A DNA stretch of 64,000 nucleotides. Source: Polyangia bacterium (GTDB taxonomy: Bacteria; Myxococcota_A; Polyangia; Nannocystales; Nannocystaceae). Below the pieces are notes generated by a model. That model had not been told where the DNA came from. It was given only the letters and a program-made list of their open reading frames with translations, and did not search any database. Location of the stretch: NCBI GenBank assembly GCA_030424595.1, contig JAUHWG010000002.1:248001-312000 (forward strand), in the 5' to 3' direction. Position 1 is the first letter of the stretch. The number at the start of each line of letters is the position of its first letter. The position numbers and the translations under genes were made by a program. This document shows positions 28,980-38,633 of the stretch, piece by piece.

Positions 28980-30137
28980 CTATTCGACCTGGACGCAGTA
29001 GACGCGGGCGGTCGAGGTGCAGGGCACGAGGCTGTTGCTGTCGGTCCAGCGGGCGTCCTTGTACTTCGACGAGCCGTAGGCCCCGGAGTCCTCGGGATCC
29101 GCCGAGGACCACCCTGCACAGTCAAACGACCCCTTCGAGGAGCCCGTCTTGGTCGTGTTGGTCCAGACCAGCGAGATGGCCAGGTCCTCGCCGGTCTCGC
29201 TCGTCCGGATCTCGCTCAGGAGTTCGCCGCTCGTCAGATCTGCCCAGCTCTCGGCGACCACGACGCCGTTCGAGAGCTCGTAGCGACCCAAGAAGCCCTC
29301 GTCCACGCCGAAGCGGTTCTTCGGCGCAGTCTCCCCTTGGCTCAGCCAGGCCATAAAGAGTCCCGACAGATCCGCGTCGTCTGCGAGGAGCTGACACTGA
29401 GCGTCCGCCTGCTGGACCCCCTCGAATTGGCCGATCTTCGGCGAGAAGTCGCCGGAGAAGCTCACGCTGCTGAGGAAGACACGACGAACCTCGCGCTCAC
29501 ACTTGCTCGTGCAACCGTCACCGTCGTCGAGGTTGCCGTCGTCGCACTCCTCGGTCCCGCCGTTCTCGGTCGAGTAGAGGAAGCCGTCGCCGCAGACGTT
29601 GAGATCGCAGGTCGCGGTGCACGCGTCATCGTCGTCGGCGTTGCCGTCATCGCATTGTTCGCCGAGCGCGTCGACCGAGCCGTCTCCGTCACAATCGGTC
29701 GCAGGGCAGTCCGAGGGGCACGCGAAGGGGTTCTCGAAGGCGCCATCGCAGACCCCGTCCGGCTCACAGCCGCCGCAGTCGTGGAGGCAATCGGCGACGT
29801 GCTCGTCATCGTCGCAGACCCCGTCGTAGTCGCAGATCGGGTCCTCTGTCGTCGACGTGTCGCTGTCGCCCGTCGTCGTGTCCGTGTCGGAGCCGGTCGT
29901 CGAGCTGACCTCGCTGGTCGTCAGCGGCTCCGTTGTCACCGTCGAGGTGGTCGTCCCTAGCGTCGTCGGCGCGGTGTCGTCGGTGGTCGCCTCGGAGTCG
30001 GAGTCCGAGTCCGTGAGCACCGTCGTCATGTCATCGGTAGTCTCGCCGCTCCGCGGCACGCAACCCGAGGAGATCGATGCGACGGCGACAAGAAACGCGG
30101 GGACGAGGAGCTGAGAGGGAGAGATCGTTGCTTGCAT
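28980..30137 (-). CDS. Cysteine-rich repeat lipoprotein with DUF1554 domain
   Basis: 385 residues from the ATG at 30137, which gives a signal peptide with lipobox (ASISSGC). A ~75-residue Thr/Ser/Asp linker leads to cysteine-rich repeats of the myxobacterial disulfide type (CDYDGVCDDDEHVADC, EQCDDGNADDDDACTATC, EECDDGNLDDGDGCTSKC). The C-terminal ~165 residues are a DUF1554-like domain: VFLSSVSFSGDF, AQCQLLADDADL, MAWLSQG, ESWADLTSGELLSEI, VWTNT and the end TARVYCVQVE. The protein at 62190 has the same two-part plan. DUF1554 is known mainly from exported proteins of unknown function; a lectin-like adhesive role is inference. Confidence 0.8.
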   Translation of the reverse strand: MQATISPSQLLVPAFLVAVASISSGCVPRSGETTDDMTTVLTDSDSDSEATTDDTAPTTLGTTTSTVTTEPLTTSEVSSTTGSDTDTTTGDSDTSTTEDPICDYDGVCDDDEHVADCLHDCGGCEPDGVCDGAFENPFACPSDCPATDCDGDGSVDALGEQCDDGNADDDDACTATCDLNVCGDGFLYSTENGGTEECDDGNLDDGDGCTSKCEREVRRVFLSSVSFSGDFSPKIGQFEGVQQADAQCQLLADDADLSGLFMAWLSQGETAPKNRFGVDEGFLGRYELSNGVVVAESWADLTSGELLSEIRTSETGEDLAISLVWTNTTKTGSSKGSFDCAGWSSADPEDSGAYGSSKYKDARWTDSNSLVPCTSTARVYCVQVE

Positions 30138-31080: not shown

Positions 31081-32355
31081 GTGACGAGCCCTGTCCTTAG
31101 CGTGCTGCTGTCCACTCTAGTGAGCACTGCTCCGATCGCCGGACCCGCGGACGCCGCAGCGAAGCCCTCCACCGCCGCGGTCGGCACCTCCGCGCGTGGA
31201 GCCCAGGCGACCCGCGAGGAGCAGGCCTTTCAGCTCTACCAAGCCGGCCGCTTCGCCGAGGCGGCGATCGAGTTCGAGGCGCTCTGGGCCGACTTCGCCG
31301 ACCCTCGCTACCTCTACAACGCCGCCTCGAGCCGCTTCGCGGTCGGCCACTTCGCCCACGCCGCAGACTACCTCGCGCGCTACCTCGAGACCCCAGGCCT
31401 CGCCGCCGATGATCGTGGCGACGCCAGCGGCCAGCTCGCGGCGGCCCGAGGTCACCTGGTCGAGCTCCTGATCACGGTCCAGGGACCCGCCGAGGGCGCC
31501 TCCCTCACGGTCGAGCATGTCCCGGAGCTCGCCTCCGATCTGCGCCCCCCCTTGGCGCTAAGGACCGCCTTCGGCGAGACCGGGGGCGAGGGCAATACCG
31601 CGCTCGACCCCGGCCAGTGGCGGGTCCGCCTCTCCGCCCCCGACGGTCGGGAGGTCACCCAAGAGATCGCGATCCGCAGCGGCCCCTCCCAGGAGCTCCG
31701 CCTCGATCTCCCAGAGGCGGAGGCGACCCCCGAGGATCCCCCGTCGATGCGCCCCTACGCCCTCGGCTTCGGAGTCGGCGGGGGCGGCGTGGCGCTCGTC
31801 GGCCTCGGCATGACGATCGGCACCTCGGTCCGCGCCAACCGCCTCCTCACGGGCGACGAGGCCTGCACGATGGAGGCGGCGACCTGCCGTCAGCGCGTCG
31901 TCCGCAACCTCAACGCCCGCGCCTGGGGGACCGGACTCCTGGGCCTCGGCCTGGGCTCGGCGGCGGGGGGCCTCACAGGCCTGATCTCCGACTCCAAGCA
32001 GCGCCGAACGGTCTGGATCGCCGAGGCCGCGACCGGCGGTGCGCTCGTGATCGCCGGCACCGCGAGCGTCTTCCTCGGCGCCAGGATCAGCCGCGGCGTG
32101 ACATCGCCGAGCGACGCGACCTGGAACGACTTTGCGGCCTGGTCCGCGGCCTTCACCGACGAGGGCGCCGGAGGAGCGAGCCTCCACTCGGTCGGCGGCC
32201 TCCTGCTCGGACTCGGCGCAGGGCTGACGACGAGCTCCGTCACCGCGCTCCTGCTCCAACGCTCCGGCGAAGGTCGGTCGCGCAGGTCGACGTCGAAGGC
32301 TCGGCTCGACGTCGGCGCCTCGCTGAGCGGCATCGTCCTCAGCGGCTCTTTCTAG
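31081..32355 (+). CDS. TPR protein with C-terminal membrane helices
   Basis: 424 residues from a GTG at 31081, with GAAGG 8-12 nt upstream. The first ~25 residues (VLSVLLSTLVSTAPIAGPADA) form a signal peptide. Residues 45-110 contain TPR-like helices (AFQLYQAGRFAEAAIEFEALW, RYLYNAASSRFAVGHFAHAADYLARYL). Then comes a small beta domain resembling PEGA/surface beta-sandwiches (LLITVQGPAEGASLTVEHV, DPGQWRVRLSAPDGR). The last ~190 residues have Gly/Leu/Ala-rich probable helices (FGVGGGGVALVGLGMTIG, WGTGLLGLGLGSAAGGLTGLI, TGGALVIAGTASVFLGA). The plan recurs in myxobacterial envelope proteins; partner unknown. Confidence 0.65.
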   Translation: MTSPVLSVLLSTLVSTAPIAGPADAAAKPSTAAVGTSARGAQATREEQAFQLYQAGRFAEAAIEFEALWADFADPRYLYNAASSRFAVGHFAHAADYLARYLETPGLAADDRGDASGQLAAARGHLVELLITVQGPAEGASLTVEHVPELASDLRPPLALRTAFGETGGEGNTALDPGQWRVRLSAPDGREVTQEIAIRSGPSQELRLDLPEAEATPEDPPSMRPYALGFGVGGGGVALVGLGMTIGTSVRANRLLTGDEACTMEAATCRQRVVRNLNARAWGTGLLGLGLGSAAGGLTGLISDSKQRRTVWIAEAATGGALVIAGTASVFLGARISRGVTSPSDATWNDFAAWSAAFTDEGAGGASLHSVGGLLLGLGAGLTTSSVTALLLQRSGEGRSRRSTSKARLDVGASLSGIVLSGSF

Positions 32356-32389: not shown

Positions 32390-32442
32390 GTGTGCTCGAC
32401 AGGGGAGATGACGCGGGCCTGCCCCGCATGTGGGTCTGCTAG
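32390..32442. repeat. Possible end of a palindromic repeat copy
   Basis: ACGCGGGCCTGCCCCGCATGTGGGTCTGCTAG resembles the right end GCGGGACTTTTGCCACGGTCTGCTAG of the copy at 11885. It fills the 83-bp convergent gap and its CTAG holds the stop of the minus-strand gene. Confidence 0.3.
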
Positions 32443-33632
32443 GGCTTGAGCCGCGGCACGCACGACCAGCGCTCATCCGCCGCCGCTCGACAGTCCATCG
32501 AGCTTGCGCACCCGCAGTCGCGACAGCAGCTGTTGGAGTCCTCGCCGCCCTCACAGCGACCGTCGCCACAGCGGACCCCGTCGCCCTGCGCCGCCGGGGT
32601 CGCGACCTCAGGCGCACCGCGCAGCTTGGGGATACACCGCCCGTCGGCCGTACAGCGCGCACAGTGGGCAGGGCAGGGGGCCTGCGGGGGATCCGGGACC
32701 TCGACGAGATCGGGCGTGTCTGAGACCCACGGGGTGACGTCCCCGGCGGGCGCCGCGACGGTCGGACGCTCGCCGCAGTCGACCACACAGCGGTCCCCGG
32801 CGCTCTCCTCCCCGGCCTCGCAGCGGCCATTGCCGCACCACTCCCGCTGGCAACGGGCGTCTGGGCCCTCATCGGTGAGCTCGGCCCGGAGGAGCTCGAG
32901 GTGCCGCTCGAGATCGCGGATGTCGCCGTCGACGAGGCGCTCGAACTTCGCCCAGCGGACCCGCCGGTTGCAGTCGAGCACCAGCGTCACCGGAAGCTCA
33001 TCAAAGAAGAGCGGCTGCTGCCCCGGTCGCCCTCGGAGCGCCTGGAGGAAGGGCGCCCCCTGACCGCGATCGGAGAGCCGGATCGTCTCGGCCGGCAGGC
33101 TCTCTGCCCAGTCTTCGTAGGCGATCTTCGGCGCGCTGAGATCGTTGACCTGCACCGCGACAAAACGAACGCTCTCGCCCCAGTCCTCAGCATGTTCGGC
33201 GAAGAGGCGCTGAAAGTCCGGCATCTCCTCCTTACAGGCGCCGCACCAGACCGCCCAGAGGTTGACGACGTGGATCGTCGACGGCGGGAGGATCTTGCGG
33301 TCCCCGACCCGTGCGCTGCGCAGCTCCGCGCCGGCGTCCAGGTGCTGGAGCTCGACCCCCATCGCCGACGAGATGTCGATCCCCTCGTCCCCGAGGTAGG
33401 TCCGATCGCGCTGGACGCGATCCTCGGGCGGCGCCGCCCGAGGGGGCTCGCCGACGCTCGCCGGCGCGGCGCCGGTGCAGGCCAGGGATCGCTCCGTGGT
33501 CCACGCGATGTCCCGCTCTGTCCGCGCGATCTCCTGCCAGAGCACCAGCGAGAGCACGACCGAGCTCGCGGCGATCAGAAGGCAGAGGAACGCGCTGAGA
33601 ACCAGCGGCCTCGACTCAGGGTCGACGGCCAT
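32439..33632 (-). CDS. Membrane-anchored TlpA-like thioredoxin with cysteine-rich C-terminus
   Basis: 397 residues from the ATG at 33632 (Shine-Dalgarno GGAGAGG just upstream; a GTG at 33668 is less likely). One N-terminal helix (LVLSAFLCLLIAASSVVLSLVLW) anchors a periplasmic thioredoxin domain at about 100-255: STIHVVNLWAVWCGACKEEMPDFQRLF has the redox motif WCGAC, followed by FVAVQVND and a FDELPVTLVLD cis-Pro loop. The C-terminal ~140 residues have about 22 cysteines in GNGRCEAGEE-like repeats. It is the last gene of a five-gene operon, overlapping the small CxxC protein by 17 nt. Probable periplasmic disulfide reductant; the Cys-rich tail may be its substrate or a redox partner. Confidence 0.8.
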   Translation of the reverse strand: MAVDPESRPLVLSAFLCLLIAASSVVLSLVLWQEIARTERDIAWTTERSLACTGAAPASVGEPPRAAPPEDRVQRDRTYLGDEGIDISSAMGVELQHLDAGAELRSARVGDRKILPPSTIHVVNLWAVWCGACKEEMPDFQRLFAEHAEDWGESVRFVAVQVNDLSAPKIAYEDWAESLPAETIRLSDRGQGAPFLQALRGRPGQQPLFFDELPVTLVLDCNRRVRWAKFERLVDGDIRDLERHLELLRAELTDEGPDARCQREWCGNGRCEAGEESAGDRCVVDCGERPTVAAPAGDVTPWVSDTPDLVEVPDPPQAPCPAHCARCTADGRCIPKLRGAPEVATPAAQGDGVRCGDGRCEGGEDSNSCCRDCGCASSMDCRAAADERWSCVPRLKP

Positions 33633-33840
33633 CCGCCTCTCCTCGCTGGGCGCTCGGCTCGTCGACACAACAGGGGCAGTGGGCCTTCGCGAGCGCAGCC
33701 AGATCGCGCGCGTCGAGCAGACGCCACGCGAGCACCACCGCCAAGAGGACGCTGCACACGGCGATCATCGCCGCAGCGATCGCGACCGAGCGAAGCATCG
33801 CCTGGCTCGTCGGCTGCGGGGCCTGCGTCTGGACGCTCAT
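33616..33840 (-). CDS. Small single-pass membrane protein with a CPCC motif
   Basis: 74 residues. The ATG at 33840 overlaps the stop of the OmpA-like gene (ATGA) and the end overlaps the TlpA-like gene by 17 nt, so coding in this operon is very likely despite the size. It has one helix (AIAAAMIAVCSVLLAVVLAWRLL) followed by LAALAKAHCPCCVDEPS. The CxxC directly after the helix suggests a thiol relay or metal site at the membrane surface, in keeping with the thioredoxin-like neighbours. No family recognised. Confidence 0.65.
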   Translation of the reverse strand: MSVQTQAPQPTSQAMLRSVAIAAAMIAVCSVLLAVVLAWRLLDARDLAALAKAHCPCCVDEPSAQRGEADGRRP

Positions 33841-34919
33841 CCCCGGTCCCCCTGGAAGCTCGACATCTCCGCCGGATCCCACTCGGTGCCGTCGCAGGGG
33901 ATCGGGATCACGAGCACCACCCGATTGATCGTCCCGTAGAGCCAGCGCCAGTCGTCGATATGCCGGGGATCCAGCTCGCGATCGAGGAGCGCGGCGAGGC
34001 GAGCGTCATCCTTCGCGCTGTGGGTGATCGACGCCCGGGAGTAGAAATTGCGGTAGCGAGAGGGGGTCAGCGGGCTCTCGCTCGCCAGGCTCCAGGCCCG
34101 CAGCGGAACGTCGAGCGGAGCGCCTCCCTCGCCCTCCGCGCTGGCCTCTCGGAGGAGCTCGGTGACGACGTCGATCCGCCGCAGCGCGAGCTCGTAATTG
34201 GCGTCGGGATCTCCGTCCGGGCTCGACCGGCCGATGATCAAGACCTGCTTGGCCCCGACCAGCGCCCTCCGGTGCGCCCGGATAGCCTCGATGTAGTGAG
34301 CGCGGTGGGCCGCGCTGAGCGGCGCCGAGCCCCGCGGCGATCCGGTCGCGAAGTGGATCGAGAGGCGATCGGGGAAGGCCGCGAGGATCGTGTCGAGCTT
34401 GTCCGGATCGATCGCGAGCTTCTTCCAGTCGTCGGCGGAGCAGGAGAGCGTCGACAGGATCGCGTCGCGATCATCGCCAGCGCGGCTGCACTCGCGGGCG
34501 AGGTAGGTCATCGACTCGTGGACGGTCGGCTGCAGGCAGACGTCGCTCGGCGGCGGCGGCTCCCGTCGACACCGGTGGAGGTAGCAGACGAGCTCGCCCT
34601 CGCAGGTGCAGGCGTCACAGATCTCGCCTTCGCCGCAGATCCGCGGCGCCTCGTCGAGCTCGCAGAGACCGCCGACACAGATCTGTCCCGGCGGACATTG
34701 ATCCAGCTCGAAGGAGAGCGGATCGCAGCTCACCGGCGTGACCGCGGCGCCGACGCTAGCCGCGGGGATCTCCCCCTCAGGCGCCCCCGGACCGGCGGTT
34801 GCGACGACGGGCGCCGGTCCTCGGACAAGCGCGACGTAGGCGACGGCGGCGACGACCAGACCCATCAGACAGGTCAGCCCGAGGAGGATCCGGGCTGTGG
34901 GATCGGACCCGCCGCTCAT
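33837..34919 (-). CDS. Membrane-anchored Cys-rich protein with OmpA-like C-terminal domain
   Basis: 360 residues; the ATG overlaps the previous stop by 4 nt (ATGA). One N-terminal helix (ILLGLTCLMGLVVAAVAYVALV) is followed by a segment with 12 cysteines (CPPGQICVGGLCELDE, CGEGEICDACTC) resembling small EGF/dickkopf-like cysteine modules. The C-terminal half looks like an OmpA peptidoglycan-binding domain: LSIHFATGSPRGSAPLS, then LVGAKQVLIIGRSSPDGDPDANYELALRRIDVVTELL, which matches the G.tD..G....N..LS..RA..V motif with some key residues changed. It may hold the operon's membrane complex on the cell wall. Confidence 0.65.
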   Translation of the reverse strand: MSGGSDPTARILLGLTCLMGLVVAAVAYVALVRGPAPVVATAGPGAPEGEIPAASVGAAVTPVSCDPLSFELDQCPPGQICVGGLCELDEAPRICGEGEICDACTCEGELVCYLHRCRREPPPPSDVCLQPTVHESMTYLARECSRAGDDRDAILSTLSCSADDWKKLAIDPDKLDTILAAFPDRLSIHFATGSPRGSAPLSAAHRAHYIEAIRAHRRALVGAKQVLIIGRSSPDGDPDANYELALRRIDVVTELLREASAEGEGGAPLDVPLRAWSLASESPLTPSRYRNFYSRASITHSAKDDARLAALLDRELDPRHIDDWRWLYGTINRVVLVIPIPCDGTEWDPAEMSSFQGDRG

Positions 34920-36223
34920 CGCGAGCCTCCTGCGCCTGTGGGCTCGGCTGGTCGCTCAGCTCGTGGCTCCGAGGGCGGCTCCGAGGGCGAAGCTGCGGCG
35001 AACTCCTCGACCGTCTCGACGCCGGCGGCGCTCGCCAGCTTGCGGTCGCGGGTCGTCGGCGATGGATCTCCGCGGAACGCCTCGACCCGCGCCGGATCCA
35101 GGCGACCCTCACGGACGCCGACGAAGAAGCCGTGGGGCGTCTCGTCGACCCCGTGACGCTCCGCAAATTCGACGTGCGCGAGGACCCTGCGGTGGATCAT
35201 CGCGTTGTTCGAAACACAGCGCAAGAGGCTGCTTTGCGGGTCGTCGACGTCGATCGGCAGGCCGACATCGTAGGCCGCCTGGGCGACCACGGGGGTCGTT
35301 ATCGAGGGATCCGGCGCGCGCTGCCGATCGAAGAGCTCGCCGGCCATCCGGATCCCGAGCCCAGGCGCCAACAGCTCGACGCACTCGACCGCCGCCGCCC
35401 CGAGACAGGCGCCCTCATCGAGCCGGAGCTGCGGGCGCTCACCGCCTGCGACAGCGCAGCCCTCGGCGACCCGCGGGTAGTGATAGAAGCGGAGCTGGGC
35501 CCCGTCCGAGAGCGGCTGAGAGCCGAGCGCCCCGGTGAGTTCGCGGAATTCCTCGCGGCAGGGCTCCGAGGTCAGATCGAGGAAGTAGGCGGCGATCGCC
35601 TTCGGCTTCGCCGCTCCGAAGAGGACGCTCGCCGCCGGCAGATCGAGGATCGCGGGGCGCTCCTTGGGGACGCTCGACGCCCCCCCACGGCTGTGCTGAT
35701 AGCCGAGCGCCGAGGCGCCAGCGAGCGCGATAGCGAGGGCCGACGCGACAAAGAGGGTGTCCACGCGGGACGCCGGACGACGCCGGACGACCGTCCGCCA
35801 GCGACCCTGGCGCATCCCCGGGGAGACCAGGAGGAGCGCCGCACAGGCGAGCCCGCACGCGAGCAGATCGACGGCTCTGCTGGCGGGGCAGGGCGTCTGC
35901 CCGCTGAGATCCGCGAGCCCGACGAGAGCGCCCAAGACCGCGAGAGTGAGGGCCCCGAGGGGCGCAAGCCCGCCGAGCCCGCGCGCCCGCAGTCCCGACC
36001 CGAGGGCCAGCAACGCTGAGGCGCCGGCCGAGCCGATGATGATCGTCGCCGACGGGAGGCCGGCGTACTCCTGCAGAGCCGTGCTCCCGAGGAGCTCGCG
36101 GAGGGCGAAGAGCGCGGTGAAGGATCCGATCCCGACGACCAGCCACGCCCCCCCCGCGTGTCGGAGCGCCTCGGCCTCTCGCCGAGCGCCGGAAGTATGA
36201 TCGGCTCCCTGGACGAGGCTCAT
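34916..36223 (-). CDS. Polytopic membrane protein with DsbA-like domain lacking the CxxC motif
   Basis: 435 residues; start and stop both overlap neighbours by ATGA. The first ~180 residues carry about five or six helices with two pairs of cysteines near or in the membrane (TPCPASRAVDLLACGLAC). The rest is a DsbA-type thioredoxin fold: KAIAAYFLDLTSEPCREEFREL takes the place of the CPxC helix but keeps only the single Cys, followed by a helical insert and VDETPHGFFVGV, the cis-Pro loop and last strand. A monothiol DsbA-like domain cannot do normal dithiol exchange alone; it may bind peptides, form mixed disulfides or work with the membrane cysteines. Confidence 0.7.
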   Translation of the reverse strand: MSLVQGADHTSGARREAEALRHAGGAWLVVGIGSFTALFALRELLGSTALQEYAGLPSATIIIGSAGASALLALGSGLRARGLGGLAPLGALTLAVLGALVGLADLSGQTPCPASRAVDLLACGLACAALLLVSPGMRQGRWRTVVRRRPASRVDTLFVASALAIALAGASALGYQHSRGGASSVPKERPAILDLPAASVLFGAAKPKAIAAYFLDLTSEPCREEFRELTGALGSQPLSDGAQLRFYHYPRVAEGCAVAGGERPQLRLDEGACLGAAAVECVELLAPGLGIRMAGELFDRQRAPDPSITTPVVAQAAYDVGLPIDVDDPQSSLLRCVSNNAMIHRRVLAHVEFAERHGVDETPHGFFVGVREGRLDPARVEAFRGDPSPTTRDRKLASAAGVETVEEFAAASPSEPPSEPRAERPAEPTGAGGSR

Positions 36224-38193
36224 CTCGAAGACCCTCCGAGCGGCAGGAAAGCCGGCATCTCGATCGCGAGATCAAAGGATCCGCCGCCCGCGCTGGCGGG
36301 GTAGTCGACCTTCGCCAGGACCCCCCGGAGGCACGCGACGAGGCCAGAGCTGGCGCCCGCAGGACGTTTGACCGCGACCTGAGCCAGCTCCCCCCCAGCC
36401 CCGACGCTGGCGCTCAGCTTGATCACCCCGGCGACGGAGTGCTTGTCGGCGCACTTGCGCAGGGCCCCGATCTTGCGGCGCGCTCGCTTCGCCGCGTCGC
36501 GGCGACCAAAGGGCGCGGGCTCCTCTGCGGCCGCGGGCTGTGGAGCTGGCGCCGGTGGCAGCTCCTGCGCTCTCTTGTCGGCCGGGTTTTCAGCTGGGTT
36601 CTCAGCCGGGTTCTCAGCCGGGTTCTCGACCTGGGCCACGACCGGGTTGTCGGCCTGGTCCGCGGACCCCGGAGGATCTGCGAGCTCCGCCGCCCCTGCC
36701 GGCGGGTCACCCCCCCTCACGGCCCCCGCGAGCTCGGGCGGGGCGTCTGCGGCGGCGACCTCCGGAAGATCGAGGCCGCCGCCGCGGCGGGGCAGGGGGC
36801 GCAAGGGCGCCGGCGCGGTCACCCACACACCGTCCGCGGGGGGCTCTGCAGCGCCGTCCGCCAGGACCGTGTCGGGTCGCATCATCCCCCAGCCGATCGC
36901 GAAGAGCCCGATCATCGCGACGAGCACCACTCCGCGCAGCGCGATCGCAGAGACCGGCAGGGGGGCCTCCCTGCCGCGTCGCCCGGCGTAGGGGGCGACA
37001 GACATCCCTGGCGTCGCCGCGGTCATCGTCGTCGCGAAGGGCATCGGCGTGCCGTCGCTCAGCTCAAAGCCGTGCCCGGGCGTCTCCTCCGCGTAGTCTC
37101 CGCTCGCCTCCGGACCCGCCTGGTCCCGCTCGCGAGTCTCGTAGTCCTCGACCAGGAGCGCGGGCGCCGAGGTCACGGTCTCGATGTCCGAGCTCGACGC
37201 GCTCGCCGTCGCCGCTGCGCCCTCGAGCGGAGCGCTAGACTCGGCTGTCCGCCTCGGGTTCTTGCGGACCTCGAGCGGCGGAGGACGCTCGCCGGTGGGT
37301 ACGAGCGCGTCGAGGGCCCGGACCACGTCCGCCATCGACTGGAAGCGCGCCTCGGGGCGCTTCTCCATCGCCCGCATGACGAGGGCCTCGAGCTCCGCCG
37401 GGACCTCCGCGGCACCTCGCTGGCTCGGCGGGATGAGCGGGGTGTAGCTGTGGTGATAGTAGTAGTCGACGAGGGTCTCGCCGGCGAAGGGCAGCGCCCC
37501 GGTCAAGAGCTGATAGAGGGTCGCGCCAAAGCTGTAGATGTCGCTCGTGATCTCAGGGTGTCCGGTCGCGGTCAGCTCCGGAGCCATGTACGCCGGAGTC
37601 CCGAGCACAGCGCCCTCTGCGGTCAGGGTCGGGAAGCGCGCGTCGACGTTCTTCGAGATCCCAAAGTCGAGCAGCTTGATGAAGTCCGGGTCCTCATCGC
37701 GAGTGACCCGCATGCAGTTGCCGGGCTTGATGTCCCGATGGATCAGCCCCTCGGCGTGGGTCGCCGCCACAGCCTCCGCGATCTGACGCCCGAGGCGGAC
37801 CGCACGGGGCCAGGGCAGGGCGCCCTCCCGCTCGAGCGTCGCCGAGAGGCTCTCCCCGGCGAGATACTCCATGGCGATGTAGACGTTGCGGGAGGGGAGG
37901 ATCCCGTGACCGAACGCCTCGACCACGTGGGGGTTGGAGACCAACGCCATCGCCTCCGCCTCGCGCAGGCAACGCTTGGCGACCTCATCACGCGCCGCGT
38001 GGAGGATCTTGACCGCACAGGTGCTGCCGTCGGAGGTGTCCTCAGCCCGGTACACCACCGAGATGTCCGTCGCCGCGATCCGCCGCTCCAGCCGATACCG
38101 GCCGGCGATCACGCTGCCGAGCAGGGGATCCGTACGCGGCTCCATCATCGCAGGCGAAGGAGAATACAACAGCGAGGCGAGGAGTGAGCTCAT
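36220..38193 (-). CDS. Membrane Ser/Thr protein kinase with atypical glycine loop and periplasmic AgmX/TonB-like domain
   Basis: 657 residues from the ATG at 38193 (Shine-Dalgarno GGGAGAGG). Kinase domain about 32-300: invariant Lys K62 (CAVKILH), HRDIKPGN with D154, DFG at 176-178 and AYMAPEL. The usual GxGxxG loop is replaced by RIAATDISVVYRA with no glycine, though Lys, HRD and DFG are intact. After a disordered segment comes one membrane helix (GVVLVAMIGLFAIGWGMM), a Pro-rich stretch with ENPAENPAENPA, and a C-terminal ~85-residue domain (ALRKCADKHSVAGVIKLSA...LVACLRGVLAKVDYP) like the AgmX/PglI or TonB C-terminal domain. It heads the thiol operon and may couple redox or envelope state to phosphorylation. 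Confidence 0.8.
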   Translation of the reverse strand: MSSLLASLLYSPSPAMMEPRTDPLLGSVIAGRYRLERRIAATDISVVYRAEDTSDGSTCAVKILHAARDEVAKRCLREAEAMALVSNPHVVEAFGHGILPSRNVYIAMEYLAGESLSATLEREGALPWPRAVRLGRQIAEAVAATHAEGLIHRDIKPGNCMRVTRDEDPDFIKLLDFGISKNVDARFPTLTAEGAVLGTPAYMAPELTATGHPEITSDIYSFGATLYQLLTGALPFAGETLVDYYYHHSYTPLIPPSQRGAAEVPAELEALVMRAMEKRPEARFQSMADVVRALDALVPTGERPPPLEVRKNPRRTAESSAPLEGAAATASASSSDIETVTSAPALLVEDYETRERDQAGPEASGDYAEETPGHGFELSDGTPMPFATTMTAATPGMSVAPYAGRRGREAPLPVSAIALRGVVLVAMIGLFAIGWGMMRPDTVLADGAAEPPADGVWVTAPAPLRPLPRRGGGLDLPEVAAADAPPELAGAVRGGDPPAGAAELADPPGSADQADNPVVAQVENPAENPAENPAENPADKRAQELPPAPAPQPAAAEEPAPFGRRDAAKRARRKIGALRKCADKHSVAGVIKLSASVGAGGELAQVAVKRPAGASSGLVACLRGVLAKVDYPASAGGGSFDLAIEMPAFLPLGGSSR

Positions 38194-38559: not shown

Positions 38560-38633
38560 TGCCCACAGCAGGAATCGAACCTGCGACCTACGGTTTAGGA
38601 AACCGTCGCTCTATCCGACTGAGCTATGCGAGC
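38560..38633 (-). tRNA. tRNA-Arg (anticodon CCT)
   Basis: A 74-nt cloverleaf on the minus strand. The acceptor arms GCTCGCA (38633-38627) and TGTGGGC pair with two G-T wobbles; the D arm starts TAGCTCAGTCGGATAGAG, the anticodon stem ACGGT/ACCGT encloses loop TTCCTAA (anticodon CCT), and the T arm is GCAGG-TTCGATT-CCTGC. Discriminator A at 38560; the 3' CCA is not encoded. It reads AGG, a rare Arg codon in GC-rich genomes. Confidence 0.97.

Follow-up and report, generated by a model that had tools for sequence, protein, structure and literature searches.

A kinase and disulfide-exchange gene cassette of Nannocystaceae, and its possible role in folding a neighbouring cysteine-rich protein with an endostatin-like tip

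The stretch of DNA considered here (the window) comprises 64,000 nucleotides from a Polyangia bacterium of the family Nannocystaceae (assembly GCA_030424595.1, contig JAUHWG010000002.1, positions 248,001 to 312,000), and all window positions are counted from its first letter. As an earlier note on this DNA had claimed, the open reading frame calls in the window contain five frames on the minus strand that are chained by overlaps, these being a kinase (KIN), a DsbA-like protein (DSB), an OmpA-like protein (OMP), a small cysteine protein (CPCC) and a TlpA-like protein (TLP). ATGA overlaps form the junctions between KIN and DSB (36220-36223), DSB and OMP (34916-34919) and OMP and CPCC (33837-33840). 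The TLP gene overlaps the CPCC gene by 17 nucleotides (33616-33632) if its start is the ATG at 33632, a longer frame being available from the GTG at 33668. The unit as we define it has seven genes, namely this five-gene core together with c5 and c0 (Table 1).

Table 1. Genes of the cassette in the window, and altered motif sites within them
Feature	Position	Strand	Basis and remarks
KIN, Ser/Thr kinase	36220..38193	-	Pkinase 4.5e-38; start ATG 38193 or 38148 (uncertain)
KIN, lost glycine loop, reading IAATDIS	38059..38079	-	GxGG kept in 27/30 other rows; L066 row not covered there
DSB, VKOR-DsbA-type membrane protein, redox-dead copy	34916..36223	-	homology to L061-type VKOR fusions
DSB, VKOR CxxC site, reading CPAS, second Cys lost	35879..35890	-	alignment; 21/21 other A1 rows intact
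DSB, DsbA CxxC site, reading SEPC, first nucleophilic Cys lost	35558..35569	-	alignment
OMP, transmembrane helix, Cys-rich region and OmpA-like peptidoglycan-binding-type domain	33837..34919	-	structure model, Foldseek
CPCC, small protein with one transmembrane segment (by eye) and C-terminal CPCC motif	33616..33840	-	
TLP, TlpA/thioredoxin-like, Cys-rich C-terminal part	32439..33632	-	Pfam Thioredoxin; WCGACK at 33231-33248
c5, TPR/PEGA-like, hydrophobic C-terminal half (by eye)	31081..32355	+	convergent with TLP; HMM family
c0, 385 amino acids, 21 Cys, predicted lipoprotein (signal by eye)	28980..30137	-	TIGR02232 and endostatin fold

The conservation of this arrangement was followed in 29 genomes of the order, which represent one family and 12 genera. 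DSB and OMP match the same 11 genomes, in three genera. TLP gives high-scoring matches in those 11 and weak ones in most of the others (27 of 29 in all), the weak matches arising because part of it is a generic thioredoxin. On 34 neighbourhoods that were fetched, the seven families were mapped with hidden Markov models (HMMs), and the order KIN-DSB-OMP-CPCC-TLP was found in 23. Five more (L074, L077, L080, L092 and L093) have a second order, DSB-OMP-TLP-c5-c0-KIN, and six are incomplete: L075 is cut by the choice of stretch and L032 and L091 by contig ends, TLP was not found in L086 and L089, and L076 is rearranged. By the same mapping, c5 is present in 30 neighbourhoods and c0 in 26, and the Nannocystis genomes each hold several paralogous copies of the cassette. 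These counts come from HMMs trained on many of the loci that they map, with gene calls from our own caller (which split the kinase of L090); the small-protein HMM was used leniently (E 0.05) and gave extra spurious matches, and the kinase HMM does not discriminate among kinases of this type, for which position is what matters. Within the L068-L072 group, the slot of the small protein holds one of 50-51 amino acids with one cysteine (two aligned rows). The earlier note's expectation that the five families occur together is thus borne out, in that DSB, OMP and high-scoring TLP mark the same genomes and the order recurs; where the genes are present (only those 11 genomes have them), homologues are not mostly apart from one another, nor is the order unique to this genome. 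Its five-gene unit was too small, having missed both c5 and c0, the latter a likely client of the others.

Several variants of the cassette were also seen. In L073 (8418-11548) KIN and DSB are separated by a gene for a HAGH-like metallohydrolase, and the kinase there is without the HRD and DFG aspartates; in the Nannocystis cassette L083 (8561-9133) TLP is truncated. Three partial cassettes, L194 (6799-12554), L195 (5360-9565) and L196 (4744-8894), consist of c0, TLP and c5 without DSB and OMP, L195 retaining in addition a kinase remnant of 70 residues. A wider protein search gave 68 relatives of OMP, for which the precomputed annotation shows no Pfam domain; those few that have an organism or functional name are assigned to Nannocystis, Nannocystaceae or 'Myxococcales bacterium', and one is named as OmpA family. 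Two other wider searches returned 2 and 1 proteins and say little, as they scored only candidates sharing most words.

The window DSB itself has no Pfam match, even with E allowed to reach 1, and no NCBIfam match. Its relative in L061 matches VKOR (1e-21) and Thioredoxin_4 (2.9e-5), and the DSB profile matches VKOR chains in the PDB, 3kp9 included (best E 1.9e-10). Judged by these matches, the DsbA-like protein is in the relatives a VKOR-DsbA fusion. An alignment of 21 of the 34 neighbourhoods (A1) shows the two loop cysteines, the VKOR CxxC and the DsbA CxxC present in all 21 relatives. In the window copy both loop cysteines are missing and both CxxC sites are broken (Table 1), and the cysteines that it retains are C256, C273, C281 and C336; its presumed thioredoxin fold, with no CxxC at the site, is read from the alignment to relatives. 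The one copy from the same genus (L032) reads SAPS at the DsbA site, both cysteines being lost. With the redox cysteines of DSB lost, and the glycine loop of the kinase gone too, the window copy is a redox-dead form of the cassette, which at other loci has its motifs intact. The DSB frame is open, and the ratio of nonsynonymous to synonymous substitution (dN/dS) between the window and the same-genus copy is 0.46 for DSB (247 codons), 0.30 for OMP, 0.36 for CPCC and 0.42 for TLP, the value for DSB being higher than that for OMP and well below 1.

A VKOR search of the window genome found two other places over the cut-off, with DSB not among them. Seven neighbourhoods of other VKOR genes (L187-L193) were considered as hidden cassettes, and none is a cassette of the same kind. 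One of these, L189 (6444-9300), comes from a genome without a cassette (G020) and has a run of three genes, DSB-like, weakly OMP-like (8.2e-6) and TLP-like (4.2e-9), near which lies a kinase gene; this is perhaps a distant version of the cassette. In L187 (1799-3553), from the window genome, a cysteine-rich c0-like gene with 35 cysteines lies about 2 kb from another VKOR-family gene, and L192 also has a c0-like gene near its VKOR gene.

KIN is computed to have one transmembrane helix (approximately 36892-36948) followed by an extracytoplasmic tail with two cysteine codons (36451-36453 and 36331-36333), and the tail is weakly similar to the AgmX/PglI C-terminal domain (18.6 bits against a cut-off of 40). 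Exactly two tail cysteines are found in 23 of the 25 kinases upstream of DSB, the exceptions being L073 and L088; the 25 are those of the window, the first-order loci, L086 and L089, with that of L090 split. The downstream kinases of the second order have two in L074, L077 and L093 and none in L092, which is cut by the stretch. The window kinase retains the catalytic Lys, HRD and DFG; with its glycine loop lost, it is likely to be weakened. A tRNA-Arg (CCT) gene at 38560-38633 lies directly upstream of the kinase gene, and a promoter and terminator scan gave nothing useful.

The window OMP has no Pfam match at E up to 1 and no NCBIfam family, and its relative in L065 scores 15.5 bits against the Pfam OmpA cut-off of 27.2. 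In a Foldseek comparison, the OMP model (predicted local distance difference test, pLDDT, 80.6; helix at residues 7-32) has an OmpA-like domain as its rank 1 match (E 2.0e-3, probability 1.00, no match being at E 0.001 or better), and the matching folds are OmpA, Pal, YfiB, TagL and TssL domains. The model thus indicates an OmpA fold. TLP matches Pfam Thioredoxin (6.1e-6, 26.6 bits, cut-off 23.5) and lies below the NCBIfam cut-offs for the TlpA and DsbE subfamilies; all 21 rows keep its CxxC, as does the window. For c5, domain matches are weak only.

The product identities given in the earlier note can now be sharpened. Kinase and thioredoxin stand on Pfam matches, DSB and OMP are named through relatives or the model, and the DsbA-like protein is better described as VKOR-DsbA type. 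Membrane anchoring, which had been claimed for all five products, is computed for the kinase and modelled for OMP, and was assigned by eye for the other three. The general theme of envelope thiols is supported by the shared occurrence in 11 genomes, the recurring order and the two-cysteine tails. It needs correction at the DsbA-like protein, which in the window has no redox cysteines, and the complex for sensing or repair of the overall thiol state that the note proposed is hypothetical.

Counting the partial copies, relatives of c0 have between 5 and 53 cysteines. Its stalk matches TIGR02232 (myxo_disulf_rpt) over two stretches, at 30.7 bits with a cut-off of 20.8, and DUF4215 at 24.3 bits, just under the cut-off of 27. 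The C-terminal domain (approximately 28983-29489) is modelled with a pLDDT of 95.3 and has an endostatin fold (Foldseek E 4.3e-10, TM 0.77). The sequence profile comparison with endostatin agrees (E 4.2e-11, all four cysteines aligned), and the domain misses the Pfam Endostatin cut-off (13.2 of 29.4 bits). In endostatin, these four cysteines form two disulfides.

The link between c0 and the cassette is one of position. In six Nannocystis genomes, at least 63 of 224 c0-type domains lie no more than 12 kb from a cassette or partial copy, where 2.7 would be expected, and at least 27 of 31 cassettes or partial copies have a c0-type domain nearby. The 12 kb limit was chosen, tandem copies are not independent of each other, and the count omits G018, G008, G009 and G010. 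In its own genome the window c0 is the best-scoring c0-type domain, a rank that is biased because the profile was built from cassette neighbours; the totals are unranked.

Genes for c0 also occur in tandem arrays. In five of ten arrays (L198, L199, L201, L202 and L204) the stalks are 88-100% identical and the tips 57-77% (one L201 pair, 94%), while the arrays L197 and L203 are similar in stalk and tip alike, and most pairs of L200, L205 and L206 have diverged in the stalk as well as the tip. Six arrays were tested for substitution rates. Stalk dS is 0.02-0.34, and tip dS in the five contrasting arrays is at least 0.38, except for one L201 pair (0.15) and with one L204 pair saturated; in L197 tip dS is 0.12-0.35, similar to the stalk. 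Tip dN/dS is 0.19-0.58, by which measure no positive selection on the tips is seen. The pattern fits stalks that are homogenised and tips that are older and diverged, without positive selection. A diversity-generating retroelement was considered as the source of tip variation and rejected, since the 38 reverse-transcriptase matches in the four genomes searched all lie more than 20 kb away from any cassette or c0 array; the nearest is some 27 kb from one of the partial copies, in G014.

Beyond the family, 377 genomes drawn from the phylum were searched with the OmpA-like profile, and three gave strong matches (E 2.0e-72, 2.6e-46 and 3.3e-32); this search scored only five candidates per genome, and OmpA-type matches were disregarded as generic when weaker than 1e-12. 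DSB, OMP and TLP are clustered in all three (L154, L155 and L156). A kinase and c5 are present in L154 and L155 as well, with a small protein at the corresponding position, the small protein and c5 of L155 being found by HMM only; there is no kinase in the L156 stretch. In the class to which two of these cassettes belong, the profile matches 2 of 57 genomes. The system is patchy in distribution. FHA-domain genes lie near all three (L154, 3932-5401; L155, 1-1474; L156, 13063-14732), and in L156 the next gene is PP2C-like, at 23.8 bits just below the cut-off of 24. In L154 (7931-10945) a single open reading frame has TLP behind an AAA/sigma-54-activator-like region (AAA_lid_14 1.1e-11, Thioredoxin 0.0012).

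We propose, with a confidence that falls just short of even, that the cassette is dedicated to the oxidative folding and display of the neighbouring c0, with the kinase as a read-out. The proposal builds on the gene set, its order, the motifs, the folds and the enrichment near c0; the client relation, electron flow, anchoring, surface display and sensing are what we infer from these. In intact cassettes, the motifs of the relatives suggest that the VKOR-DsbA fusion would use quinone as its source of disulfides and hand these to the client. TLP and CPCC would reduce or shuffle wrong disulfides, a step that a stalk of 20-50 cysteines would call for. OMP, by virtue of its fold, may tether the machinery to peptidoglycan; c5 might be an envelope scaffold, which is the weakest step; and the kinase tail, whose two cysteines allow one possible disulfide, may read local redox or client state. 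Since the window VKOR-DsbA protein is without redox cysteines, the window copy would be a TLP-driven quality-control unit, with oxidation coming from one of the two other VKOR-family genes and a kinase that is likely weakened. In support of dedicated folding, we note that the cassette is tied to one substrate family, which within Nannocystaceae-like f1 fits better than general thiol sensing; that the presence of more than one cassette in a genome, every one having a c0 of its own, likewise fits a client-specific role better; and that partial copies keep c0, TLP and c5 in the absence of DSB and OMP.

A number of observations weigh against this proposal. Of the 29 genomes examined, 22 have VKOR genes and 26 have c0-type domains, many more than the 11 that carry cassettes; evidently, c0 can be made without a cassette. 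The evidence for c0 as the likely client is indirect, being one of gene linkage, and in the window genome the linkage is not significant (1 of 29 c0-type domains at the cassette, 0.08 expected, P 0.08). Eight of the 34 neighbourhoods are without c0, some of them being cut, and none of the three outside cassettes has a c0 in its stretch by HMM; there, the kinases of L154 and L155 stop at the membrane with no tail. The c0 of L077 has 5 cysteines and no cysteine-rich repeat, and that of L080 has 8 cysteines. As to novelty, endostatin-like surface proteins of bacteria have already been named.

The explanation closest to the earlier note is that one envelope complex senses the thiol or oxidant state in general and passes the signal on by phosphorylation. 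The redox poise of its kinase tail would be set by VKOR-DsbA and TLP, and c0 would be no more than a regulated output. We regard this as unlikely, although it is the alternative that survives best. The tail cysteines are as constant as it would have them, the FHA genes near three outside cassettes and the PP2C-like gene near one are as for a phospho-signalling path, and the redox set of the outside cassettes has no c0 beside it. The lack of a kinase in L156 and of tails in L154 and L155 argues against it, as does the lost glycine loop of the window kinase.

Also unlikely, in our estimate, is that the tandem c0 proteins are receptors or adhesins for surface recognition, having constant stalks and exchangeable endostatin tips, which the cassette would serve as a maturation and signalling module. 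The five arrays with near-identical stalks and diverged tips, in which stalk dS is lower than tip dS, speak for it. So does the fact that endostatin-like outer-membrane proteins are already a named bacterial kind (the Len families, to which matches here are weak), and a lectin-like tip, cysteine-rich repeats and an OmpA partner recall TraAB. However, the contrast between stalk and tip is weak or absent in the other five arrays, the tips bear no sign of positive selection, and a single c0 adjoins the window cassette. Both of these alternatives overlap with dedicated folding. A decaying window paralogue with no present function seems improbable, for although the redox cysteines and glycine loop are lost, and the same-genus copy has lost both DsbA-site cysteines, all frames are open and overlapping, the dN/dS values against that copy are those quoted above (0.46 for DSB, and lower for OMP, CPCC and TLP) and the TLP active site is intact.

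No description of the cassette was found in the open-licence literature, where most subscription journals are absent, and a word check of PMC4555120 found no mention of Plesiocystis, Haliangium, deltaproteobacteria, or fused/fusion. The closest functional precedent is DsbL/DsbI of uropathogenic E. coli, the pair for arylsulfate sulfotransferase, which is described as a redox pair that may be dedicated to a specific substrate group (PMC6067686). To such a pair the cassette adds a VKOR-DsbA fusion, a TlpA-like protein, an OmpA-like anchor, a kinase and a cysteine-rich, endostatin-tipped candidate client. Fusions of VKOR with thioredoxin are already known from Synechococcus (PDB 3KP9; PMC3853704). 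DSB is like them in joining VKOR to a thioredoxin-type domain, and differs in its larger DsbA-type partner, extra conserved cysteines and operon with a kinase, and in the window copy by having no redox cysteines.

In TraAB, the outer-membrane exchange system of Myxococcus, there are a lectin-like tip and cysteine-rich repeats on one protein, an OmpA-like partner and translationally overlapping genes (PMC3325183), all of which are shared with the cassette. TraA has PA14, TIGR04201 repeats and MYXO-CTERM, whereas c0 has endostatin instead and comes with redox enzymes and a kinase: for the window c0, Pfam at E up to 0.1 gives DUF4215 and a weak Endostatin match only, and NCBIfam TIGR02232 only, with no PA14 and no TIGR04201. 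The Leptospira proteins LenA/B and LenF (NCBIfam names) resemble c0 in having an endostatin-type domain on a predicted bacterial outer-membrane lipoprotein. Len family matches in two c0 relatives are far under the cut-offs (15.9 of 400 and 16.7 of 300 bits), and c0 has in addition the long cysteine-rich stalk and the cassette. The kinase, FHA and PP2C-like genes near the outside cassettes resemble the threonine phosphorylation pathway (PpkA, Fha, PppA) of the type VI secretion system (T6SS), and the OmpA-like fold of OMP is related to TagL/TssL of that system; in contrast to the pathway, no gene at the window cassette is an FHA gene by name (T6SS core genes were not searched for).

It is tempting to combine these elements. 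The multiplying Nannocystis-type cassettes could produce a repertoire of surface receptors with constant cysteine-rich stalk and exchangeable endostatin tip, fold these oxidatively, anchor them and monitor them through the kinase, amounting to a disulfide-gated recognition of neighbours or prey in which the tail reads the redox or folding state of the receptor; we hold this to be speculative and rather doubtful. If the cassette does act as we propose, a Ser/Thr kinase would be tied to a client-specific disulfide pathway, and VKOR-DsbA fusions would gain a defined client in a predatory Gram-negative lineage. What would be new is a dedicated disulfide module for a diversified endostatin-like surface family, such surface proteins having themselves been named before. 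The intact cassettes of Nannocystis, set against the redox-dead copy in the genus of the window, constitute a natural experiment.

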